From NCBI GenBank assembly GCA_002224055.1, contig AZLU01000053.1:1-63091 (forward strand): DNA of 63,091 bases, in the 5' to 3' direction. Every line of letters begins with the position of its first letter. Position 1 is the first letter of the stretch. Positions 19,123 through 33,047 of this stretch are shown in pieces. Both the position numbers and the translations under genes were made by a program. The notes under the pieces are model-generated. The model did no database searches and was not told where the DNA came from. It worked only from the letters and a program-made list of their open reading frames with translations. The DNA is from Pezizomycotina sp. ARF18 (Eukaryota > Ascomycota).

Positions 19123-20011
19123 ATTTTGAGCAGGAAAACGAAAAGAATTTTGGTCATTGCGTGACCTTTCTTCCTCATTTCTTTTCCGTATTCTTCTCCG
19201 GTGTTTTTCTAGTTCTTTTGTCTTCTGCTGCTCGGTTCTGCCTGTTTTCGCCAGTGCTTTTGTCGCATTTCCATTTACTGCGGAGTTTTTCCCCTTCTTT
19301 CCCGAGATGCAATGTGCGTTGTGCGTTCAGGTCACCCACTACTCACTGCCATCGTTGTGACTATTGTATGCCCTTTACTTTTCTTTGCCTTATAGTTGTT
19401 TTCATTGCTTGAGCATACACGTATACTCCAATCTAACACACAGTACACAAATAAAAAATTCAAGCAAACAAAATATTGTCTCTACCGTGGTGTGAATACT
19501 TTGTGAAATGTTCGAGCTTATATATACTAGGATAAGGAGTATGCATGCTCCACAAAATCGGAATCTCACTGAAGTCCCAGTTTTTATTATTGTGCCTTAG
19601 ATACATGTGTTTCGTAAGATAAATACCAGTAAATATTTTACAGGTGACCTAAAAAAAAGAAATAGAAATAAAAACCGGCGGAGCTGCACTTCCGGCTCGG
19701 CTGGAACCTCCAGTGACATATCTACGTGGAAGAAGACAGTACAAACCGCGGCGATAACGCAGGCGGATAGACGCCAGGCATGGTGCGAAAAAAAAATATG
19801 AATAATTCCGAGCAGATCATTTACAATCTAAAAAAAAAAAAAAAATAACAAAAGAAACGCAGTACATGGACAGATAAATCCTGGTAAGAGGATAAGAGGG
19901 AAGGATATGAAAAAAATTGTTTACAAAGAAGATATTTGTCCATCATTGTTTGACAATATAACGCCGTAAGGTTTCTCCAAAAAAAAATAAAAAAAAAATC
20001 ATGTATTATTT
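19123..20011. other. Convergent intergenic region ECD / GH47
   Basis: 3' flanks of two convergent genes. T-rich just after the ECD stop, A-rich (A runs at 19830-19845 and 19979-19999) near the GH47 stop. The ORFs at 19157-19412 are pyrimidine-rich and show no protein features. Confidence 0.6.
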
Positions 20012-23000
20012 TCATTTCTTCTGGTGAGCCACTGCTTTGGGCCGTAGAAAAGGATGCGCCTCGGTGTTCAAACCCAGTCGTCAAGTGATATTACCTCCGG
20101 CTCCGCAAAGAGGAGTAGAAATACTTGAGCGTTTCCGCCAGCCAGAAGGACTCCATCTCATCCAGCTGTGTAGGCGACTTGGAGGTCACATCGTTAATCG
20201 CTGAATGCGCGGTGTGCGTCTTCGTGTACTTTTCGACCGCTTCCCACATCCGCCAACCTTTCTCTTGCCATTCTTTGTCGCCAGTTATCCGATACTGCAA
20301 AAGCAGGCTACTGTTAGAAAAAACATTCCGGATAGATTCAAAGATAAGGGAATATAACAACGTAAATTTGAACATATATAGATGAAGCGTGACAAGAACG
20401 CAAAACCTACCATGTAAAATACAGACTCAATAGCCTCGGGTCTTAAAATATATCTGGTATCCTTGATGCTTGTATAACCTGGAGGCAACCTCATGTTTCC
20501 CACCATCTCCTTGGCCAAAATGAACCATTTATCGTACGCATCATTCGCCTTTTGTTGCCTCTCTCCGATATTTTCCTCGTTCCCATTCCATCCTTCATCT
20601 TCCGAAGAGCGGTGTGAACTCTTCTTCCGACGGTGGCGCCGCGGTTCATCGTAATCCTCGCTGTCCTCAGCGAACGAGTGGCGTTCCCTGGCCGGCCGCT
20701 CGGCATACTGCTCCTCGTCCTCAGCGACAGGCGATGCTTCTTCTTACGGCGGACATTGTGCGGATGACCTCTTCTTCTTCCCAGTTGTCCCGACGCTGCA
20801 GTTCTGGTTCAACGTGACGCTTCTCGATTTCAGATAGTTCCCTCTTTGAATGCCACGGGTTTTTTAGCGGAATCCCTCTGGCTTTCGCCGCTTCGATGGC
20901 CGCATCCGGAGGGGGCGAAACTCTAGATAACCACTCGTTCTCGTCCCATCTGCAAGGCTCCTTTCCTTTACAGTGGTGCATTTCGAAGACCTCAGGCATG
21001 ATACCCGTCGCCGTCGAGAAATAATTCCAAACACACCCCTCGGTTATCCTCTTGGCGTCATCAAGTTGCTCAGGGTGCTTGAACAACTTTGCTCCTAAAC
21101 CAACCATTCCACCGACGAAGCAGGTCTGAAGTTGCATTAACATCAAATCGCAATAGATGACGTAAAAGGTGTAAAGAAGAAGAGGTGGCTTACAAGATGA
21201 CTGCCCTCTGGAGTAAACCGTTCCGTTGGAGGTACGGCAACGGTGTTGAGTGTCACCGATCCGGAAACAAGCATGTCTGGGTTTTTCGGTGCCAGAGGTT
21301 TGAAGAAAAGGTGTTCTTTGAAAGCTTTGTAAGAATTTTCGTACATCGTACGGTACTGGTCCTTCAGGCCGCCCAGCAGGAGGTACTCCTAATTGATTCA
21401 TGTTAGCTCGAATGTACTTGCTGGAACAGTGAGGGAGAAGATTTCCCTCTTTATAATTGAACAATTCGAAATTGGCTACAAACTTTGGGAGATATTCATA
21501 AGTAGAATCCGCCTGCCCACCGAGAGTATACCTATCTATCCCCCATGCTGGCGCGACCAGCCCCTGGTCCTTGCATACTCGTTTTGTCGTTATGATGAAA
21601 CTCTGAGCAGCTGGCGCCGCTACAGGAGCCACTGCCGCCGCGGCCGCTGGGGGAGCAGGTGCAGCAGGAGAAGCTTGCTTGCTTGCTTCTTTGAGAGCTT
21701 TCCCGGCTTCATCGTGAGGTTCGCTGTCTGCTAGCGAACCCTCCTGCCTCTTAACATGTCCAGAAGTACTTGAATCTGGGTTAAGAACGCGCTCCTCGCT
21801 GCTAACCGTTCCTCCGCCAAGAGGTTCCGTTCCGGTTGTTCTACCGCGGCGGCAGGAGGCGGTGGTAGTTGCTGAACAACCTTTTCGTCGGAAGCGGCAC
21901 CTTTTTGCTCACTCGCGGCCGCGGGACCTGGAAGAGGATTGGGAATCTTAACTTCTTCATCAACCTCTTTGCATCCGGAAGCGTCAAGATTTAAGGGCCA
22001 GAGTCCGGGCAGAGACATCTTCATCTGCGCCTCTTCGAAGGCATCTGTGATCCTCTGGATAGCATCGAAGTACTTATTGTCACCAGTGAGCTGTGCCAAT
22101 CTTGTGAATTCTACAGACAGAGAGCCAAGCTCAGACATAACGACCCTGGTTCCGGCTCGCGATTTTCCTGCCATAGCAGATCTATCGTGGATAACAGATT
22201 CATCAGCTCAGAAAAAAAAAGTTGCTAGTATCAGTTTCCGCAGAAATTGTCGAGGTAAACTTACGGCTGCCACTGAAAGTACAGCTTGGGCATGCGATTT
22301 GGCGTGTCGAATGCGCTATAGAGCACGTCTCCGAGCTCGACTGCTTTCTCCAAAAGGATGGATGCTTATGACCCGTAACGTCGTACGCACCAAGGAAGCC
22401 GCCAAGATAACGTATCGTGGTCTCGAACATGGGAATCTCAGGCCTCGTCGTTGTAGTAAAGTCGATTTTTCCACATGGCCAAGGCTTCTGTGAATTCCCT
22501 ATGAAGGCCCATGATCGCCATGGAGTCAAGCGCGTCGACCAGCGTTGCCGCCCAACCGGCGAAGGGATCGCGGTACGATTTGGAAACCGGCGAAACCTCG
22601 TCGTGTCCCAAGCATACTTGCGGTATCCGTCCCAAGCGTGGCGAAAGCTATCCTTGATGGCCCCTTGTCGCCTATGCTCTCTTGCGGTCTTTCTCCGTTT
22701 CAGGCTCAAAGTTGAACTGGATCTTGGGCAAGTCTAAGGGTTTGCCTTTGGGTAGAGGAATCATCGATTCTTTGGGAACGGGATAGTGCTCCGGAGTCTT
22801 CTTCCAGTGAATTACTTTGGAATTGGTACCCGCTTCCACTTCGTTCCTCCCTTGTCCTCTACCATCTGTGAGAGCGGTATAGTCGTGATGTGTATGAGAA
22901 ATGTCCTTCTCGGGAATTGTTGGTGTCGCGTCATCGGCTTTCGGGGATGGTTTTGCCTTCTTTGAATCGGGAGGCGAATCGATATCGTCGGCATCGATGT

Positions 23001-23364
23001 CAGTGTTATGTTTTGGGTTCTTCACCATTTCTGTCTGGGTCATCTTCTGGAGGAGGAGGGCGCTGTACCGGTTTGTTTCCAAGATCCTCTTCATTGACAT
23101 CGAAGCGGATGCCACTCCCATCCTCATCCCGGCCCGGCGGTTTGAATATCTCGAGCTCTTCGTCATCTGCTGGCTTGGTGGGTGGTGTACCGGCTTGACC
23201 GGGGATTTCGCGTCGCTTTCCTTCGCCTTCCTCCAACTCTCTGCCGGCGAGACGAAGTTTCTCGTTTTCGATATCGAAGAGGAATTGTAGAACAGGAATA
23301 TGGCGACGAGGAGGAATATGGCCAGCACCCTGTACCGCCGCAGGCGGAATGCGCTGGAGATCAT
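20012..23364 (-). CDS. Class I alpha-1,2-mannosidase, glycoside hydrolase family 47
   Basis: Trims alpha-1,2-linked mannose from N-glycans in the ER/Golgi; calcium-dependent inverting enzyme. The N-terminus is a type II signal anchor ([20 protein letters not shown] then AIFLFY), followed by a long low-complexity stem with [20 protein letters not shown] and [19 protein letters not shown]. The catalytic domain starts near [19 protein letters not shown] and has [121 protein letters not shown] and [33 protein letters not shown] and NTEAHPF, whose threonine is the calcium ligand of the family. Introns lie near 22206-22263, 21133-21197 and 20296-20410. A charged insert sits before RLPPGYTS (see findings). 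An in-frame upstream ATG at 23550 is an alternative start. ER versus Golgi class is undecided. Confidence 0.92.
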
Positions 23365-24937
23365 GCCGCCTTCTTCGCGATAACCGCTGGAGAAAAGTAC
23401 CGAGTCCTTTGTGCCGTCCGATGCCTTCCACGGTAAGAGCAGGGGCACGGACGAACGCTTCTCGGAAGTGGACAAATAGCGGCTGCCCAGACACCTTGCT
23501 TTTTTAAAACTCTCCACTCGTTCTACTCCCTTCCGCTTCTTGTTCTGCACCCCAGAATGCTACACGACTGAAGGCTTCAGGGAATTAAATAGTATTGTTA
23601 GCTAACTCTTGTAATTTATAATAATAATAATGAACGCGGTGTCCGTTGTCCTAGCTTCCGGCGTGTCCTAAATCGAGGGTACTCTGGGGGTTGTCGAACC
23701 AAGGGGGGGGAAATGAGAGTAACTAACGTCAATTACCGTCCCGCGCGCCACGCTTCACCCCAATAATAATAAAAAAAAAAAAAAAAAAAAAAAAAAACCC
23801 GCAGAGACCGTCGATACTTCGTTCGATTGAGGAAATGATCAAATTGGACTTAGGACGTGTTTTTCCACTAGATAAAATAATCGAAGAGAGAACGAATTGA
23901 AAAAGGGAGCCTCTCGTTTTACTCAAGAGAGAAACTCGGAAGGGATCTCTGTTAATTCGGTCGTGCTGCCCCTTTGTCCTTTTAAAAATATATATAATAA
24001 AGAATGCACCTGCTCAACTTCCTCCTGAAGGGTCCAAGTTACTTTTAGTTGTTCCGTGTCAGACGACCGTTTTCTGATAGGACAGTCCAAAAAGAATAGA
24101 CAGTTTATTATCGGAGGCGAATCTGCAGCAGTGGGGGAGACTTTCTCCTAACGCCAAGCGAACGTTTGCAAGAACGGAATGGGGAAAGTTTCCTTGTCTT
24201 TACTTTTACAGTACCATTCAATGGGGTTCTCGAACGTCGTTTTTACATCAAAAATGAAACGTTTATTAATATACTTACAGAGCTAGATACTTGTACCCAA
24301 ATTTATTGTTGATACTATGGCTAATTGAAGGAGAGAAAAAACGTGGGGACAAAATCTCATGGCGTGAATTTGTACAGATTGCTAGGATTTAGTCGATGAA
24401 TCAAAAGCGGCCTCCACCTATAGCTTTGTAAGACCTGCTGTCGGGTAGAATTTTCAATACCCACGTTTTGATTCTACGTCACCAATTGCGATTGTGTATT
24501 CTTCTTTGACGTTACACGAATCGTTTTCTACGTTTGCTTCCTTAAATCAAAGATATCGATGATTACCGTATATTTTGAATTTGGCCAAAAGGTTTCGTGG
24601 ATCCTTTACCGCCTGCGATGTTCTAGAACAACGCGGGCCCCACGACGGTATTCGAGGGCCTAGGTTCATACTTACATCTGAACAGAGACACAGATGATAG
24701 AAAACTTTTTTCAAAACACTCCCACCCTTTGAAATATCCAAATTTTAATTCCTTGAGCTTTGTCCTTTTAAGAATAATTACTTAAGAAGAATATAAAGAG
24801 AGTAAATTAGAATAAGTAGCAGAATTATGAATCTATCATACTCTATTGCTTTTGGCTTCGTCTCCTTTTTTGAGCTCTATACATAAGATAAAAAAGAGAA
24901 CCAGGGATGTAATAGTATGGAATAAGGTAAGTGATGT
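23365..24937. other. Region between GH47 (-) and the end of CCT6 (-)
   Basis: Promoter side of GH47 and 3' flank of CCT6. It holds an A27 run at 23771-23797 (T27 on the GH47 sense strand, about 410 bases upstream of its start). The minus ORF at 24547-24741 has no recognisable similarity. No RNA gene seen. Confidence 0.55.
23771..23797 (+). repeat. A27 homopolymer upstream of GH47
   Basis: 27 A in the 5' flank of the minus-strand mannosidase gene, so poly(T) on its sense strand, as upstream of PSE1. Confidence 0.8.
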
Positions 24938-27332
24938 TCACTCCTCCGCGCCACCAGGTCCTCCCCGGCCTCCCTGTTCATGCGTCAGTCTAATTCCGGA
25001 GGAAGAAAAAAGTGAAAGCAGGCTTTATTTACTTACCATCTGTCTTGCTTTCAAAAGTTCGTCGCAAAGCAAAAGATTCGAGCTATGCTGGAGCTTGATG
25101 CGATCGCGTTCCTCAAAACACGGTAGGAATCGTAAACACCGGCGCCAATGGGGTCCATAGGTTCTCCGGAGGTCAAATCCAGCCCAACAACATGACCTCG
25201 GATTGCTCGTCTTGCAGAGCAGCAACTAAATATAAAGTAGCTTGATGTTAGCTAAAGGAAACAGATATCTTACACGGAACGAGAAATAGTAAAAATTTAT
25301 GTAAATAAATTCGCGAATGAAAACGTACGGGAATCTTGAATATCGAGGCCGGCATTTTGGCCAGCGTTTTAGGTATTACTAGAAAGCATCGGCGAAAGCC
25401 TGCACGCCGGATTTGGCCTTTCCTTTGATTTCCTTCCTGACGGCTTCACTGGAAAGGTGAGCTGCGCAGGCTATCTGGAACGCCCCGGCACGGGTACCAC
25501 GCTCTCATCGGTGATCATGTTGTATACGCTACGCAGACCGTCTCTGACGGCATCGCTGACCTGGTGATCGTGTGTTGATTGGGCCCTTGATGAGGAGCGT
25601 CACCGACTTTGGATCCTTCACATCCTCAACGAAGTGTACTTCTCCTCCCCGAGCGTATGCTCATAGACTTTACCGGCCCAGCCTAAGATTTCCGGCGACA
25701 AATCATCGACGCTGTTCTGAGCAACACCTCCGCAGACAAACTGCAACCTTTCCATGTTTCTTCTCTTTGCCCTCCGCAGAGCAAAAATGCCATTCTTAGC
25801 CAGAACATCCAACGAGAGTGGGTCGATACCCTTCTGGTTGATAATCACGAAGCCTTTCTTGGGATCATCACCGCAAACCTGCTTCTTCAGGTCGACAATC
25901 TTTCGAAGCTTCTCGTCTACGAACTTGCGCTCACTCTCGACGAGCTTGTCACGCTGCTCCGCGCTGCTGTAGAAGAAACCAGAGTTGACCTCACTCTTTT
26001 CGTACTCCAGAGACACGTTTAGGGTGAGAATGTACGCATTGTCTACCTGCTTCGGCATGTCGGGATGTCTAGCGCCGTGATCTAGAGCAAGCCTCGTATC
26101 AGTTGGTATCAGAGGCCGTCCGGTGTTGCATTTTCATGATCTCAATCATGTGCAGATCGATTTTCTCGGGAGGACGGTGAATAGCCAGGACAGCATCGAC
26201 AACACTGGGAGTCAGCGTTTCGGCAAGCGAGTGGGACAGTTTTGTCGTGAGCGACGTCCGAGCTACGGAAAGAAGCAGTTCCCTGTCGACTTTAGCTTCG
26301 ATTTTGAATGTATCGAGGAACTATATATCTCATTAGACGATTTTTCACCCCAAATAGCAAAAGAAACCTTTTAAGCAAAAGCGCTCGACAAAGCACACCT
26401 TTAGTGACTCGTTCTTGGCAATCTCGAATCCGTCGACGATAACCCTGGGATGTAAGCCCTCGGATATGTACCGATCCGCCTGTCGCAGAAGCTCTCCTAC
26501 TAGAAGGACAACGGAAGTTGTTCCGTCACCCGCTATATCATCTTGCGCCGTTGCCTGGGAGTGGAGCGTTAGAATGTAGACACTTCGTAGGAGCTAGATA
26601 AGGGCAACGTACAGCACCTATGTAGAGTGTTAGTAAACTCGATTTGTGACTGGAGGTATGTGGATGTGAGGGGTGTTTAAGAAGAAGCTTACGAGCTATC
26701 AGAACAGCGGTCGGGTTTTGTATTTGCATCTCGCTGAGTAGAACCTGATTATGAACCGTTAACATTTCGAGCCTGAGCTGTATATATCATGCAGACGTAC
26801 TTTGCCATCCTTGGTAAGTTTGATCTATCAGGGCATATATATTAGCTGATGTATATGAAACAGAACCGGCGCAGCAGCCGTTCAATTGGTATCGTTAAGT
26901 CGAAAAAAAAAAAAAAAAAAAAAAAAAACTTACGCCTCCAGCTCCATCAACAAGCCTTTTCGAAATCGTTGTTAGTTGGTTTTAAATTATCTTCCTTCAA
27001 GTAGTTGCTCTAGATAGCGACTCACATTTTATTGTTCTGTCGTGAAAAATTTGCTCACACGGTCAGCGCTCTGCATTCGAACGGGAGCCTCAAGAGGAGC
27101 AAAAACAAAAGATAAATACCCTAGCGGCCCTAGATTAGAGCGTAGAACTCTTGCAGACCAATACCAGCATTGATGTTGACGCGCAGTGCTTCCCCCCGCC
27201 TCTATTTTTAAAGTTCGTATTGAATTAGCAAGCTTACAAGCTTCGAAGCAATATTTTAGCACCTTAACAAGAAACAAAAAGCTAACCCACCCTGCTCTCC
27301 GCCTTTGGATTCAGCAACTGAGTCGCCGACAT
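24938..27332 (-). CDS. CCT6: T-complex chaperonin subunit zeta (CCT6/TCP-1 zeta)
   Basis: A subunit of the cytosolic CCT/TRiC ring that folds actin, tubulin and WD proteins with ATP. It starts [14 protein letters not shown] (27291-27332), then [17 protein letters not shown] and RSNLGPLG (27120-27201), after which come tiny exons encoding T(I)[34 protein letters not shown] and RA, and then [20 protein letters not shown] (from 26554). The large exon from 26320 carries [92 protein letters not shown] and [10 protein letters not shown], all diagnostic of the zeta subunit. The 3' exons give [34 protein letters not shown] and a glycine-rich tail [11 protein letters not shown] with TGA at 24938-24940. 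At least ten exons. Divergent from NOP56. Confidence 0.94.
26613..26617 (-). other. CCT6: Putative 5-nt micro-exon of CCT6
   Basis: On the sense strand GTGCT is preceded by TACTAACACTCTACATAG (branch point plus acceptor) and followed by GTACGTTGCC (donor). Inserted between the exon ending GCTC (26693) and the exon starting GCAACGG (26554) it gives codons GCT-CGT-GCT-GCA-ACG, restoring the conserved ARAATAQDD. Confidence 0.7.
26903..26928 (+). repeat. A26 run in a CCT6 intron (T26 on sense strand)
   Basis: It begins just after the donor GTAAG of the intron (26825-26933), so the intron opens with a long poly(T). Confidence 0.85.
27026..27036 (-). other. CCT6: Putative 11-nt micro-exon of CCT6
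   Basis: The sense sequence between CACGACAG and GTGAGTCG. It supplies the residues T-I-K-M between SNLGPLG and LVDGAGG. The true length is probably 12, since one A seems lost from an A run to keep frame. Confidence 0.65.
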
Positions 27333-27878
27333 TATTTAACAGCTGCTGCTATAGGTGAACGTAAACAAACGTGCTGTCGCGTGTCCGAAGGGTGTTAAGT
27401 TATGAGGAAGCTGTTTCTGGTTTCTGTTTCGAAAGAAAAAGTGGTAGGAGAGTGGTGGCAGATTAGAAGCTCTAGCTCTACCAGATTTTCCCTCCAGTTT
27501 TTTTTTTTTTTTTTTCCAAGCCCGTCGAGCAAACACCAAAAAAGGTCCGCCTCTAAAGTGCTTGGCATTTTACTCCCTTCCTTAACCCAGAAATACAACA
27601 AGGCAACTGCCTGAAGATTATTGCATGTATTAAGTAAGCACTTAAAGATCATAATTATACATTCGAGTATATAACCAAATAATACCTAGATCTATCGAAA
27701 TAACCCTTAATTTACTTCCTTAAGCTACGATAAAGCTCAGATGCGCCGCTATATCACGCAAGACTGTGGTATACCGTGCGTGCAGCTTGAAAATAGCACG
27801 TTTTAACCGCTTAATAAGCATTCCTAAGAGCCTCAAAGTTAAAGTTTAAACCGGCGGTAAAAAAAGCAACAACAACAA

Positions 27879-27915
<37 letters not shown>

Positions 27916-28093
27916 AAAAGGTAAAAAAAAGACTAATTTTTTTCTCCCGTATCTCGAAAAAAAAAACCCCCCCAATCAGTTAATCGAGCAATCCTGCAAT
28001 CGAACCGTCCAGCACCATCAGAATTATCATCAATTGGGTGAAAGCACGGTAAAATACAGTATTTAAAGCGTTTACTCGAGTCAAGGGATCAAG
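27333..28093. promoter_or_regulatory. Divergent intergenic region CCT6 / NOP56
   Basis: About 760 bases between two start codons facing away from each other. It contains a T17 run (27499-27515), CAA repeats followed by an A33 run (27880-27912) and short A/C runs (27957-27973). This is the likely shared promoter region of two growth-related genes; no specific element was identified. Confidence 0.5.
27880..27912 (+). repeat. A33 homopolymer between CCT6 and NOP56
   Basis: The longest pure A run in the window, preceded by four CAA units. Confidence 0.9.
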
Positions 28094-30073
28094 ATGGCGG
28101 CGGTAGACTACGTTCTGCTGGAGCAGGCGGTGGGTTACTCCATCTTCGAGGTCGTTCACAACCAGAAACAATCGGCAATCGGTTGAAGGAAGTTCAGGAT
28201 GCGGTCAAGGACCTGTCAAAGTTTGGCAAGATGGTGAAGCTGGTTTCGTTTGCGCCTTTCACGTAAGGGGTTTCCTTCGTCGCGGAGAATGAATTGGGGG
28301 AGAACGATGGGAGTTTTCTGCCCTCTGTACTGATCGTGTGTTTTTTTTTTGCCTGGTTTTTGTTCAGCGGTGCCGCACAAGCATTGGAGAATGCCAACGA
28401 CATATCCGAAGGTACCACCTTACTACTTCTTCTTTATGTCCTCCTTACGCTTGTAGCGCTTAATGCTAATGCGTGATGTAGGAATCATGTCGGACCACCT
28501 AAAGGCCCTCTTGGAAGTCAACTTGCCGAAAGGTGGTAAGAAGGTGGTTCTGGGAATCGCAGATAAAAACCTGGCTGGTTCGATCAAAAGCGGCTTTCGT
28601 AGCGTATCTTGCGAAACTAGTGAGGTCGTCCAGGATCTTATCAGAGGCTTGCGATTGCATGCTCCGAAGTTACTCAAACAGTTGCAGAGTGGCGACGTTG
28701 AACGAGCGAGCTTGGGTTTGGGTCACGCATTTTCGAGAGCCAAAGTCAAGTTTTCTGTCCAGAAGAACGAGTAAGTATTCTTTCTAGGGTCTTTTGTTTT
28801 CCCGCCTTGGGTCATTCAGGCGGCTAAGTTTTCTTTCCTTGTGCTCCTCAGCAACCACATCATCCAAACAATCGCTCTTTTAGATCTTTTGGACAAGGAC
28901 GTCAACACATTCGCCATGCGCGTACGAGAGTGGTACTCGTGGCACTTCCCGAACTTGTCAAAATCGTCAGCGACAATTACCAGTATGCCAAGCTGGCTTT
29001 ATTCATCAAGGACAAAGCGACGCTCATGCAAGAATCCCTGCACGATCTTGCGGCAATCGTTAACGACGACGCTGATGTCGCCCAGAGCATCATAGATGCC
29101 GCTAAGATGTCGATGGGGCAGGACGTTTCCGAATCAGACATGATCAACGTCACTTCTTTTGCGCAGCGTGTTGTCAGCCTTACCGAGTTCCGGAGAAGCT
29201 GCATACCTACCTGGTCAACAAATGAACATCGTAGCGCCGAACCTTGCGGCCCTGATAGGAGAAACAATCGGTGCTCGCTTAATATCGCACGCCGGTAGTC
29301 TGACAAATCTCAGCAAATACCCGGCATCGACCGTCCAGATCCTCGGAGCCGAAAAGGCGCTCTTCAGAGCTCTCAAAACCAAGGGAAACACTCCGAAGTA
29401 CGGGTTGATATATCACTCAGGCTTTATCAGCCGCGCCGGGCAAAAGAATAAAGGTAGAATATCGAGGTTCCTTGCCAACAAGTGTTCCATTGCCTCGAGG
29501 ATCGATAACTTTGCCGATGTTCCGACAACCAAGTTTGGAGAAGCTCTCCACGCACAAGTCGAAGAGAGGCTTAGATTCTATGCGAGGGCACAGCTCCTAC
29601 GAAGAATGAGGCAGCCATGGTAAGTCAAATCTTTATTTCGCTGGTTTAATAAAAGTTTTTGCATCGCCTGTACTAATATTTGATTTTTTCCAATTTTCTA
29701 GAAAAATGCAATGGATGCTGTTTTGGCGGATATGAAGGTGAACGGCGTTGGCATGGACGTTGACATGGATGATGACGATGAATCGTCCGATGAGGAAGCA
29801 GAGGCGCCAAAGACGAATGGTCTTAAGGAGAAGAGGGCCGAAAAGGCCAAGGAAGAAAGAAGGAGGAGAAGATTAAGAAGGACAAGAAAGACAAGAGACA
29901 AGAAGGATAAGAAAGACAAGAAAGAGAAGAAGAAGGAGAAGAAAGAGAAAAAAGAAGAGAAGAAGAAAGAGAAGGAGAGCAAGAAGAGATCAAGAGAAGA
30001 AGACGAGGAAGTCGATGAACCTAAACGGAAAAAGGAAAAGAAGGACAAGAAGGAAAAGAAGAGCAAGAACTGA
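28094..30073 (+). CDS. NOP56: Nucleolar protein NOP56 (box C/D snoRNP)
   Basis: A core protein of box C/D small nucleolar ribonucleoproteins, which guide 2'-O-methylation of rRNA. The order is the Nop5/Nop56 N-terminal domain ([37 protein letters not shown]), [34 protein letters not shown], the coiled-coil NOSIC region ([34 protein letters not shown]) and the Nop RNA-binding domain ([80 protein letters not shown]). The C-terminus is an acidic patch then a long KKD/KKE tail ending KKSKN. The ALENAN-SEG and SRAKVKF wording fits NOP56 better than NOP58. Introns lie at about 28264-28367, 28411-28481, 28770-28850 and 29620-29700. A missing C near 28155 breaks [12 protein letters not shown]. Confidence 0.95.
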
Positions 30074-31704
30074 TTGAGCTTGCGAGCTTGGCCATCACCT
30101 CACATCTCTCAAAATGTTCCGATTGATTTAACTTCATTCTATTCACTCCGTGTCGCGTGTTTCTTGGTATTCACTAGTTCCTTGTACCATTAGTATCCGT
30201 CATCTTTTGTATTCCTAAGTGGCGCTCTATCTGCTGTTTTGATCGATATATATATTATCTTCCGCTGCTTTTCTTTCCATTTCCGTGCCCAATAGTTGGA
30301 CTGCCTTCATAACATATTGTAGTTCTAAGGATCTGTATTTTACATCACCAAGTAACAAAATGTGCTTTCTAGTTGATTCTTTCCTACTTTTTGCTTTTCA
30401 TTATTTTCCATGTTGTCAAAGTTTTTGTATCTCTCCTTATGGTAAGAGCAGCAGCACTAGAAGCCGTAGCAGCTGTCAAGTATAGAGTCGAAAAAAAAGC
30501 CAGCTCTTGTTTTATCGCTCTGAAATATTATTTCGTCTTGCCGAAAAATTACTTAGTATTGTGCTGAAGCGTGAGCTATAGCCCAGCATAAAAAAGCACC
30601 CTTCGAATAAGTATGAGCTTGCTAGATGGGCGAGAGAACGGCGAACGCGAACCCCCTCCCCCCCTTTGTCCTATTTTTACCAGCAGACAATTAAATAATA
30701 TATTATCACCTGTCCCCTACCTAGGTACATTGATATTATTGTTATTGAAAATTCCTTTTTTTTTTTTTTTTTTTTTCCTTGCCCGCGTTTTGGATACCCA
30801 TGACGGAGATCGAAAGGGTGAAGTTCGTTGGACCTATCAGAACGCATTTCATTTTGCTTTTTGTTTTGTCTTCAAAGAGAAAAAAGAAAAGAAAGAAAAA
30901 GCATGTAAGGAATGTGGGTATTTGGGGGGAATATCGAGCCTGTTAAGGGCCACTCGTTCCGCCTTTGATCGCGAATGAGCTCTTTGTTTAACGCGCCATG
31001 CAGCTCTTTTCAAATGTGTTGCATAGTAATAATGTACTCACTTGCTAAGTTATCTGCCCATTGACGAGCTAGCTAGCTTTCCAAGGTACATGTACCACCG
31101 CTAAACTACGTTACTGAAGAAAAAAAAAGACAAGCAAAATTTTTTCCCACGCTACTTGTAAAAGAAAGAAATATTCGAAAAGAAGTACTAAGTATGTAGA
31201 GAGAAAAAAAAAAAAACCGCGTTTTTTTTTTTTTTTTTTTTTTTTTTCGCGACTCCAGCGTTGACCTTTTTTTTTCTCCAATAAATTGAAACAAACAACA
31301 CCACACTACCTCTTTTTTTTTTTTTTTTTTTTTTTTTCTTTCTCCCCTTCTACTTTTTACACTACTTACGACGAGAATAAATTAAACTAAATACTACTGG
31401 GTGGGTCTTCTCCCTCTCCTTCTTTTTCTTCTTCGTTCTTTCTCTTTCGCGCTTTCTCTTTCTCTCCTTCGGCCAGTTTTTCCATAGTATATAAGTACTT
31501 ACTGTAGTCGTATTTTGCCCTCTCTGTCCCCCCAACTATATCGTATTTTTCGCTCCTATCAGTGTTCGTCAAGAATCACCCTACTTACTTCTACATACTC
31601 TACAGAATAAAGTGAAATCCAAAAGAAAGGAAAGATAGACGTTTTATTTAAAAAGGAGACAACAAGCCCATATTTAATTCATTTTCACAATAAATCAAGA
31701 CATC
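30074..31704. other. Gene-free region between NOP56 and ASF1
   Basis: 3' flank of NOP56 and promoter/leader of ASF1. It contains T runs at about 30757-30777, 31222-31247 (T26) and 31313-31337 (T25), a GAGCTAGCTAGC palindrome at about 31065 and TC-rich leader sequence. ORFs here are low-complexity. Confidence 0.55.
31222..31337 (+). repeat. Two long T runs upstream of ASF1
   Basis: T26 at 31222-31247 and T25 at 31313-31337, with further T/A runs between, about 370-480 bases before the ASF1 start codon. Confidence 0.85.
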
Positions 31705-33047
31705 ATGTCGGTCGTTTCGCTGCTCAGCGTCAACATCTTGAACAACCCCGGCAAATTCAGTGACAAGTTCCAGTTCGAGATTACCTTCGAATGCCTTGAA
31801 GCTCTGACCAAAGGTACCTGTATATTCCCCTAAGGATGCCAAATTTAGTAGCTTTGTTTGCCCATCTGTCACTCGTAATCTTCAAGCTCGGGGAGCTTGA
31901 AAAGCTCATCGCCTAGAAGTTTTGAAAAATTTGTAACTATCGCTTGCAAGCGGCTAACTTTGAGGTTGTCGTGTGAAACCTAGATCTCGAGTGGAAGCTC
32001 ACTTATGTCGGATCTGCTACTTCGTAAGTCAACCTTTAATTTATTCTGAGCTTTGGCTCGCTCCTTCGTTTGCCTCATTTTTGTTTCTTCTGCAAGCAAA
32101 AAAGTTTTCGGGCATATGCTATGGTCGCGTTACAAGAAGACCTCGGAAGCTACAGGAGCTAATTGGACACGCCCTCTTGACAAAACAGCTCCGAACATGA
32201 CCAGGTTCTTGATTCCATGCTGGTCGGCCCCGTACCAGTCGGAGTCAACAAGTTTGTCTTCGAAGCGGACCCGCCTAACTTGGCTCGCATCCCTTCCTCT
32301 GAGATCCTCGGCGTCACTGTCATCCTCCTCACTTGCGCGTATGAGGACAGGGAGTTCATCCGCGTCGGCTACTATGTTAACAACGAATACGATAGCGAGG
32401 AATTGAATAACGACCGCCCAAATCGGTTCAGGTCGATCGCCTTGTCAGGAATGTCCTCGCCGAAAAGCCTAGGGTTACCAGGTTTGCCATCAAGTGGTAA
32501 GTCGCGTCGAAATATTCGATCTCTTTTTCTCTCTCTTTTCTTTTTTTCTGTTATGAGAACAAGAAACACATAACCATGTACATAGTACTTGAAGGCCTAT
32601 ATTATCGGAAATAGTGCTGACAAATTTATTTTCGAATAGGGATTCTGAGGAATCTGCTCCCGCTGAGTTCCCGCCCGATCAGCCCGAGGCCGATCAGCAG
32701 GAAGCTGACGGTGATCAGTATGGCGTTGAAGAAGGCGAGCCGGACGAGAGTGAGCTCGAAGGTGAGGGTGAAGCCGAGGCCGGGCCGGCCGACCCTGACG
32801 CCATGGAAGAGGATACCGAAATGGGTGGAACTGAGCACCCTGCTGCCGAACCAGCCGGCGATGAGTCCGAGGATCTCGAAGAGAGCTCGAGGAGGAGTAC
32901 GAAGAAGACGAGGAAGCCGAGGAGGCCGAGGGCGACGAGGAAATGGGTGAGGGCGCGAAGCAAGGTGAGGAGGGCATGGCCGTCGAGACTGCTCCCGGTG
33001 GTCCAGGTCAGCAGCCACCTGCTCAGGAGGTCATGGCTCAGCACTGA
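31705..33047 (+). CDS. ASF1: Histone chaperone ASF1
   Basis: Binds histone H3-H4 and hands it over during replication-coupled and replication-independent nucleosome assembly. It starts [20 protein letters not shown], then [15 protein letters not shown]. Exon 1 31705-31813; exon 2 (31982-32022) is only about 41 bases and gives [14 protein letters not shown]; exon 3 from 32191 gives [45 protein letters not shown] and [19 protein letters not shown]; exon 4 from about 32640 starts [18 protein letters not shown]. The immunoglobulin-like core is highly conserved. The C-terminal tail is long and very acidic ([19 protein letters not shown]), as usual in fungi, ending QEVMAQH with TGA at 33045-33047. 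Frame changes near 32210, 32430 and 32890. Confidence 0.95.

Follow-up and report, generated by a model that had tools for sequence, protein, structure and literature searches.

Can an exon of five nucleotides be a constant part of a conserved fungal gene? The question arises on the minus strand of the DNA analysed here (the window, 63,091 nucleotides), with which contig C53 of a 46.36-Mb, 408-contig genome begins. There, at 27332-24938, lies a gene for CCT6 (TCP-1 zeta) whose beginning can be read only through a row of tiny exons, the smallest of them GTGCT. A sequence-only reading had described this row.

Identity and exon structure of the locus

The gene was mapped with a purpose-written spliced aligner that tolerated frame breaks, set no limit on exon length, was uninformed of the claimed exons, and used donor, branch and acceptor weights set by hand. 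With yeast CCT6 (4v81_F) and bovine CCT6 (4b2t_Z) as references, both alignments gave exons of 82, 11, 22, 24, 52, 5 and 156 nt after exon 1 (Table 1). The exons were joined into a conceptual protein, in which nine X and three typed residues bridge the breaks; it matched 11 zeta sequences, all at E <= 1e-100, and its best match, over the full length, was itself a zeta subunit (4v81_F, residues 4-528). Pfam PF00118 matched at the locus. Searched at the DNA level, the genome yielded no further copy of CCT6. Codon for codon, the genome's beta-tubulin (410/421 identical) and actin (361/364 identical) agreed closely with filamentous-ascomycete sequences. The locus is the CCT6 gene of a filamentous fungus, most likely in working order.

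Table 1. Exons of CCT6, and the two introns on either side of its smallest exon, in window coordinates
Feature	Coordinates	Strand	Description	Basis
Exon 1	27291..27332	-	coding part, 42 nt	spliced alignment
Exon 2	27120..27201	-	82 nt, one internal frame break	spliced alignment
Exon 3	27026..27036	-	11 nt in the assembly, one base too few for the frame	spliced alignment
Exon 4	26934..26955	-	22 nt, LVDGAGG	spliced alignment
Exon 5	26801..26824	-	24 nt, IKLTKDGK	spliced alignment
Exon 6	26693..26744	-	52 nt, 17 residues + C	spliced alignment
Intron 6	26618..26692	-	75 nt, GTAAGC...TACTAAC...TAG	alignment and interval print
Exon 7	26613..26617	-	5-nt micro-exon GTGCT, completes R and gives A	spliced alignment
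Intron 7	26555..26612	-	58 nt, GTACGT...TTCTAAC...CAG	alignment and interval print
Exon 8	26399..26554	-	156 nt, ends ESLK	spliced alignment
Exon 9	25329..26320	-	992 nt in alignment, eight one-base frame breaks	spliced alignment
Exon 10	25037..25225	-	TTTAG acceptor before 25225, donor after 25037	by eye
Last exon	24938..24973	-	to TGA stop, after the tenth intron	by eye

The five tiny exons that had been claimed (exons 3 to 7) were all recovered, with the same positions and lengths, and printing their flanks showed each to lie between AG and GT. Exon 3 is probably 12 nt long in truth, because the frame break, one base short, falls inside the 11-nt exon. The introns between exons 1 and 8 measure 89, 83, 70, 109, 56, 75 and 58 nt; intron 2 has a weak donor, GTATTT (score -0.2). 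Of the nine introns that the aligner placed, eight fall within the first quarter of the gene, and a tenth, near the 3' end, was placed by eye, as was the acceptor of exon 10, which replaces the aligner's exon start at 25240. The chain of tiny exons had been said to make up the 5' half of CCT6. The chain is there, but its extent had been overstated: out of ~540 codons it takes in only the first ~80, and from SNLGPLG to ATAQDD there are only about 40 codons.

Several other features were seen in the window. A scan of 20000-32000 showed unbroken stretches of A or of T, 26-33 bases long, at 26903-26928, 27880-27912, 23771-23797 and 31222-31247; one of these is within intron 4 of CCT6 and another upstream of the gene. 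On the minus strand beside CCT6 (20721-22709) two open frames match glycosyl hydrolase family 47, and at 29159-29623 and 29825-30069 there is an open frame whose translation contains a snoRNA-binding Nop domain, with AAG-rich tandem repeats after it on the same stretch. The window had no match in Rfam (gathering thresholds) or in a tRNA scan.

The 5-nt exon and the reading frame

Exons 6 and 8 are separated by 138 nt containing, in order, GTAAGC, TACTAAC, TAG, GTGCT, GTACGT, TTCTAAC and CAG. The interval thus holds a very short internal exon bounded by AG and GT, with a branch site on each side of it: the predicted TACTAAC ahead of GTGCT is present, and so is the CTAAC of the 58-nt downstream intron, as part of TTCTAAC. 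GTGCT encodes the RA of IARAATAQDD, with the joined codons GCT C/GT GCT/GCA ACG giving A R A A T, so that it does restore the frame of ARAATAQDD as proposed. ARAATAQDD aligned to CCT6 free of gaps in the 4 alignments shown among the 11 zeta sequences found; the yeast counterpart at the micro-exon site is VLIARAAAAQDEITGDG. Barring the 5-nt exon from the alignment cost 18.8 (yeast) or 12.8 (bovine) score units and forced a codon with two bases missing. The frame and the conserved motif both require the exon: when GTGCT is skipped a TGA follows within five codons, and when downstream intron 7 is retained a TGA is likewise read.

How often would such an arrangement occur by chance? The 138-nt interval was put through 200,000 dinucleotide shuffles, and AG/GNGCN/GT with room for two introns appeared in 77; 24 shuffles had a summed splice score >=0, and none reached the observed score. 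The composite motif CTAAC-N5-25-AG-GNGCN-GTRNGT occurs 4 times in the genome (both strands, 46.4 Mb), versus 3 times for a reversed control pattern. By our own arithmetic, with 54 possible positions, that density amounts to a chance rate of about 2 per million such intervals, a figure that flatters the case somewhat, both the motif and the shuffle test having been designed after the site was known. The other three occurrences were rejected as micro-exons: at the one in C215 an ordinary exon begins, in a frame that we take to be xanthine-dehydrogenase-like, the one in C16 lies inside an open frame, and the one in C257 is in AT-rich sequence with no convincing frame. Introns 6 and 7 themselves fall within the range of the control introns described below (n=52, median 98.5, minimum 57), with 58 nt near the lower edge; their acceptors both score 4.0, a value reached by 38% of control introns. 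From its sequence, signals and protein fit, the 5-nt exon is very probably real.

A gene structure with no micro-exon can also be drawn. Intron 6 has a length divisible by three and no in-frame stop, so its retention alone would yield an in-frame insertion of 25 residues; the 75 nt might then be coding or always retained, making a 132-nt exon with the insertion after IAR, and only the 58-nt intron would be removed. By our own estimate, chance alone gives such a stretch in about 1 case in 10, which is not rare. Against this structure, the 75 nt carry a GTAAGC, a TACTAAC and a TAG, and the insertion would adjoin the conserved GDGTT, where none of the 4 CCT6 alignments shown has one. Further, three of seven CCT-family pieces of this genome (C99, C54, and C53 at 218 kb) continue through the site with no insertion; a C24 stretch is divided over two pieces, and the three others are neutral on the matter. 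We regard a coding or always retained intron 6 as improbable.

Donors, branch sites and acceptors are each present twice in the 138-nt interval, as in a stwintron, a kind of nested intron known in Pezizomycotina (PMC6616335). In that case an inner intron would leave first, an outer splice site would be regenerated, and nothing of the interval would stay in the mRNA. The frame, however, does not survive complete removal: with all 138 nt out, a TGA is met within five codons. Nor is there a strong regenerated donor, the only recursive one being AG/GTGCTG, which scores -1.8 with the hand-set weights, against 3.8 for the GTACGT that sits five bases on. Removal of the interval in this nested or recursive manner is very improbable. 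The sequence-only reading had held that splicing must proceed either by intron definition or by recursive or ordered removal. Intron definition is likely, but recursive removal fares badly on its weak donor and out-of-frame product, and "must" was too strong a word.

Frame breaks and sequence error

The CCT6 alignment breaks frame 12 times, each time by one missing base (12/12). These breaks had been overlooked in the sequence-only reading; one lies where the 11-nt and 22-nt exons join, which is one base short, one in the 82-nt exon, and ten further 3'. Are they the marks of a decaying gene or of faulty sequence? The same aligned-codon count was made for other conserved genes of the genome. 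Ten control genes had 77 breaks in 2,685 aligned codons, of which 57 lacked a single base, 15 lacked two and 5 had extra bases, at rates that differed by gene from 0.7 to 7 per 100 codons, and seven added models had 46 in 1,594. Altogether breaks were found in 17/17 control models, 123 in 4,279 aligned codons, with actin, tubulins and histones included. The counts retain Arf (poor alignment, 12 breaks, 10 gaps), Cdc2 (18 gapped positions) and a Rho-like control (102/172 codons identical) that is probably a different Rho from the reference. Base loss was seen at 24938-27332 and at loci L049-L051 and L055-L068, and is apparently genome-wide.

Among the one-base-short codons of the ten controls and CCT6, 58 of 69 are explicable by one inserted base, and in 46 of these 58 the inserted base equals a neighbour (79%, vs 61% for random deletions). 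The effect is modest; the pattern fits an error of sequencing or of the consensus in which short runs lose bases. Since all 17 control models break too, the CCT6 breaks are likelier to be sequence error than signs of a dying gene, and we take them to be assembly errors. Bases are lost in this assembly, sometimes two at once, which makes exact exon lengths uncertain.

That CCT6 is a decaying pseudogene, so that its exon structure would be meaningless, has the 12 breaks in its favour. CCT6 is essential in yeast, and for this reason the failure of a DNA search of the genome to find another copy counts against decay, as do the breaks in all of the controls, actin, tubulin and histones among them. 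We consider decay highly unlikely.

A related possibility is that bases were lost at an exon edge where R-A is encoded, and that a single 138-nt intron separates exons 6 and 8. An assembly with 123 breaks in the 4,279 codons of 17 control models is certainly rich in lost bases. GTGCT, however, is not explained by error of this kind: five bases would have to be gone, and the breaks are mostly single (57/77 in the ten controls, all 12 in CCT6). It would moreover be a coincidence that GTGCT, lying between two complete introns, supplies the identical two residues. Such a loss seems to us slightly less probable even than a coding or always retained intron 6.

Tiny exons elsewhere in the genome

The sequence-only reading had called CCT6 an unusually intron-dense locus. 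That holds only in part, since the 5' ends of beta-tubulin and actin are crowded with tiny exons as well. The actin gene has internal exons of 22, 12 and 4 nt, the last being CTGG (L050:472-475, C382:14471-14474) between introns of 133 and 131 nt. With a CTAAC upstream and a GTATGT downstream, GAATGTGCAAAG/CTGG/TTTCGCC reads GMCK-AG-FAGDD; CTGG is needed for the KAGFAGDD of actin, and without it the frame is lost. In 50,000 shuffles any AG/CNGG/GT was found 102 times, and one as good as that observed was never found. Beta-tubulin has internal exons of 24, 26, 14 and 15 nt, and others were found in calmodulin (16 nt), EF1a (23 nt) and GAPDH (14 nt). When every aligner exon is counted, those of the poorly aligned Arf and Rho-like controls included, 10/53 control internal exons are <=30 nt and 1/53 is <=5 nt; for CCT6 the figures are 4/8 and 1/8. 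Tiny exons are not special to CCT6.

In EF1a the first coding exon is ATGGG, 5 nt (L051:200-204, minus-strand orientation), followed by a 102-nt intron. A 4-nt EF1a "exon", GTCA, proved to be an artefact of the aligner's 350-nt intron limit and was gone at 600 nt.

Small 5' exons have long been known in fungal beta-tubulin genes. The introns of the ten control genes (n=52) number 29 in the first third of the gene, 8 in the second and 15 in the last, and the likely origin of the tiny exons is such 5' crowding of introns in fungal genes, through 3' intron loss or through gain. Exons <=5 nt are present in two of 18 gene models (actin, 4 nt; CCT6, 5 nt), a hint that such exons are common, from too few models to say. 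It is doubtful that constitutive exons <=5 nt are an ordinary feature of conserved genes in this fungal lineage: CCT6 was not a random choice, the last seven models added none, and the composite motif was no more than 4 vs 3. The CCT paralogues were rejected as a survey, only exon pieces having been recovered, mostly lacking the N-termini where tiny exons lie.

A model for splicing of the CCT6 transcript

Taken together, the data are best explained by a CCT6 gene with a 5-nt exon, the intron-defined introns being removed in turn and the exon being obligatorily included; we give this joint reading a probability of roughly 0.88. Seven short spliceosomal introns would cut the first ~80 codons of CCT6 and leave micro-exons, the smallest of 5 nt. 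Each intron would be recognised as a unit, with a donor, a branch site and an acceptor of its own inside 56-109 nt. Five bases presumably leave no room for U1 at the downstream donor beside the complex on the upstream acceptor, and for this reason introns 6 and 7 would be removed one after another, in either order. Inclusion of the 5-nt exon would be obligatory because skipping gives an immediate stop. The signals, the frame, the protein fit and the other tiny exons are read directly from the genome; the splicing itself, its order, the steric exclusion and constant use of the exon are what we infer from them.

In fungi the splice sites of short introns are generally held to pair across the intron in any case, and tiny exons should need no special machinery; CCT6 would represent ordinary fungal splicing at the extreme of exon size. 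Efficiency under intron definition is reported to follow intron length and not exon length, and Prp40 is reportedly required for exons too small for enhancers (PMC8624252).

The required 5-nt exon of CCT6 and the 4-nt exon of actin extend a short list of fungal ultra-small exons, and exons this small can break the gene models of genes that are used as standards. Among the matches listed from the open-licence literature, no title or abstract mentioned a micro-exon in fungal CCT6 or actin. If two in 18 held genome-wide, there would be hundreds of exons <=5 nt, above any fungal report among the matches listed, and with them a natural system in which to measure the minimum spacing of splice sites under intron definition. 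Two complete short introns five bases apart offer a clean test of enforced sequential removal.

Comparison with known systems

In Schizosaccharomyces pombe, a cgs2 micro-exon is said to have been traced to intron definition by mutation (Romfo, 2000), with steric crowding proposed and some intron retention reportedly suggested as its price; cgs2 is another gene in another lineage. In the basidiomycete Phanerochaete chrysosporium, P450 genes resemble CCT6 in having exons down to 6 nt and frequent introns of 45-55 nt, in models that are largely predicted, with some cDNAs (PMC1184071). Closer in lineage, the 20-nt micro-exon of Trichoderma Xlr2 is also internal, in a filamentous ascomycete, and was absent from the published model; it is glucose-regulated (PMC11121469), whereas the CCT6 exon should be included constantly, since the protein would be destroyed by its skipping. 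The 15-nt exon II of Aspergillus niger rtnA is likewise a very short internal exon of the Pezizomycotina, but unlike that of CCT6 it has a length divisible by three, follows a stwintron and is skippable (PMC6616335). Plant micro-exons of 1-15 nt are often missed in annotation, and in rice a 5-nt exon next to a 12-nt one was verified by RT-PCR; the plant exons are backed by RNA-seq and RT-PCR, whereas that of CCT6 is fungal and comes from sequence (PMC8831610).

Ultra-small exons as a kind are therefore already known, and an even shorter one has been reported in a fungus (PMC12940212). This is the one-nucleotide exon of Fusarium CYP621A, which is supported by RNA reads, is conserved in 20 orthologues, and is wrong in nearly all gene models (PMC12940212). 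It differs from the CCT6 exon in length, 1 nt versus 5 nt, and in that the latter is read from genome sequence; and CYP621A is a rarely expressed P450 and not a chaperonin (PMC12940212). In both filamentous fungi, an ultra-small internal exon lies in an interval of double length, 139 nt there and 138 nt in CCT6, and in both the exon is needed for phase and for a conserved motif (PMC12940212).
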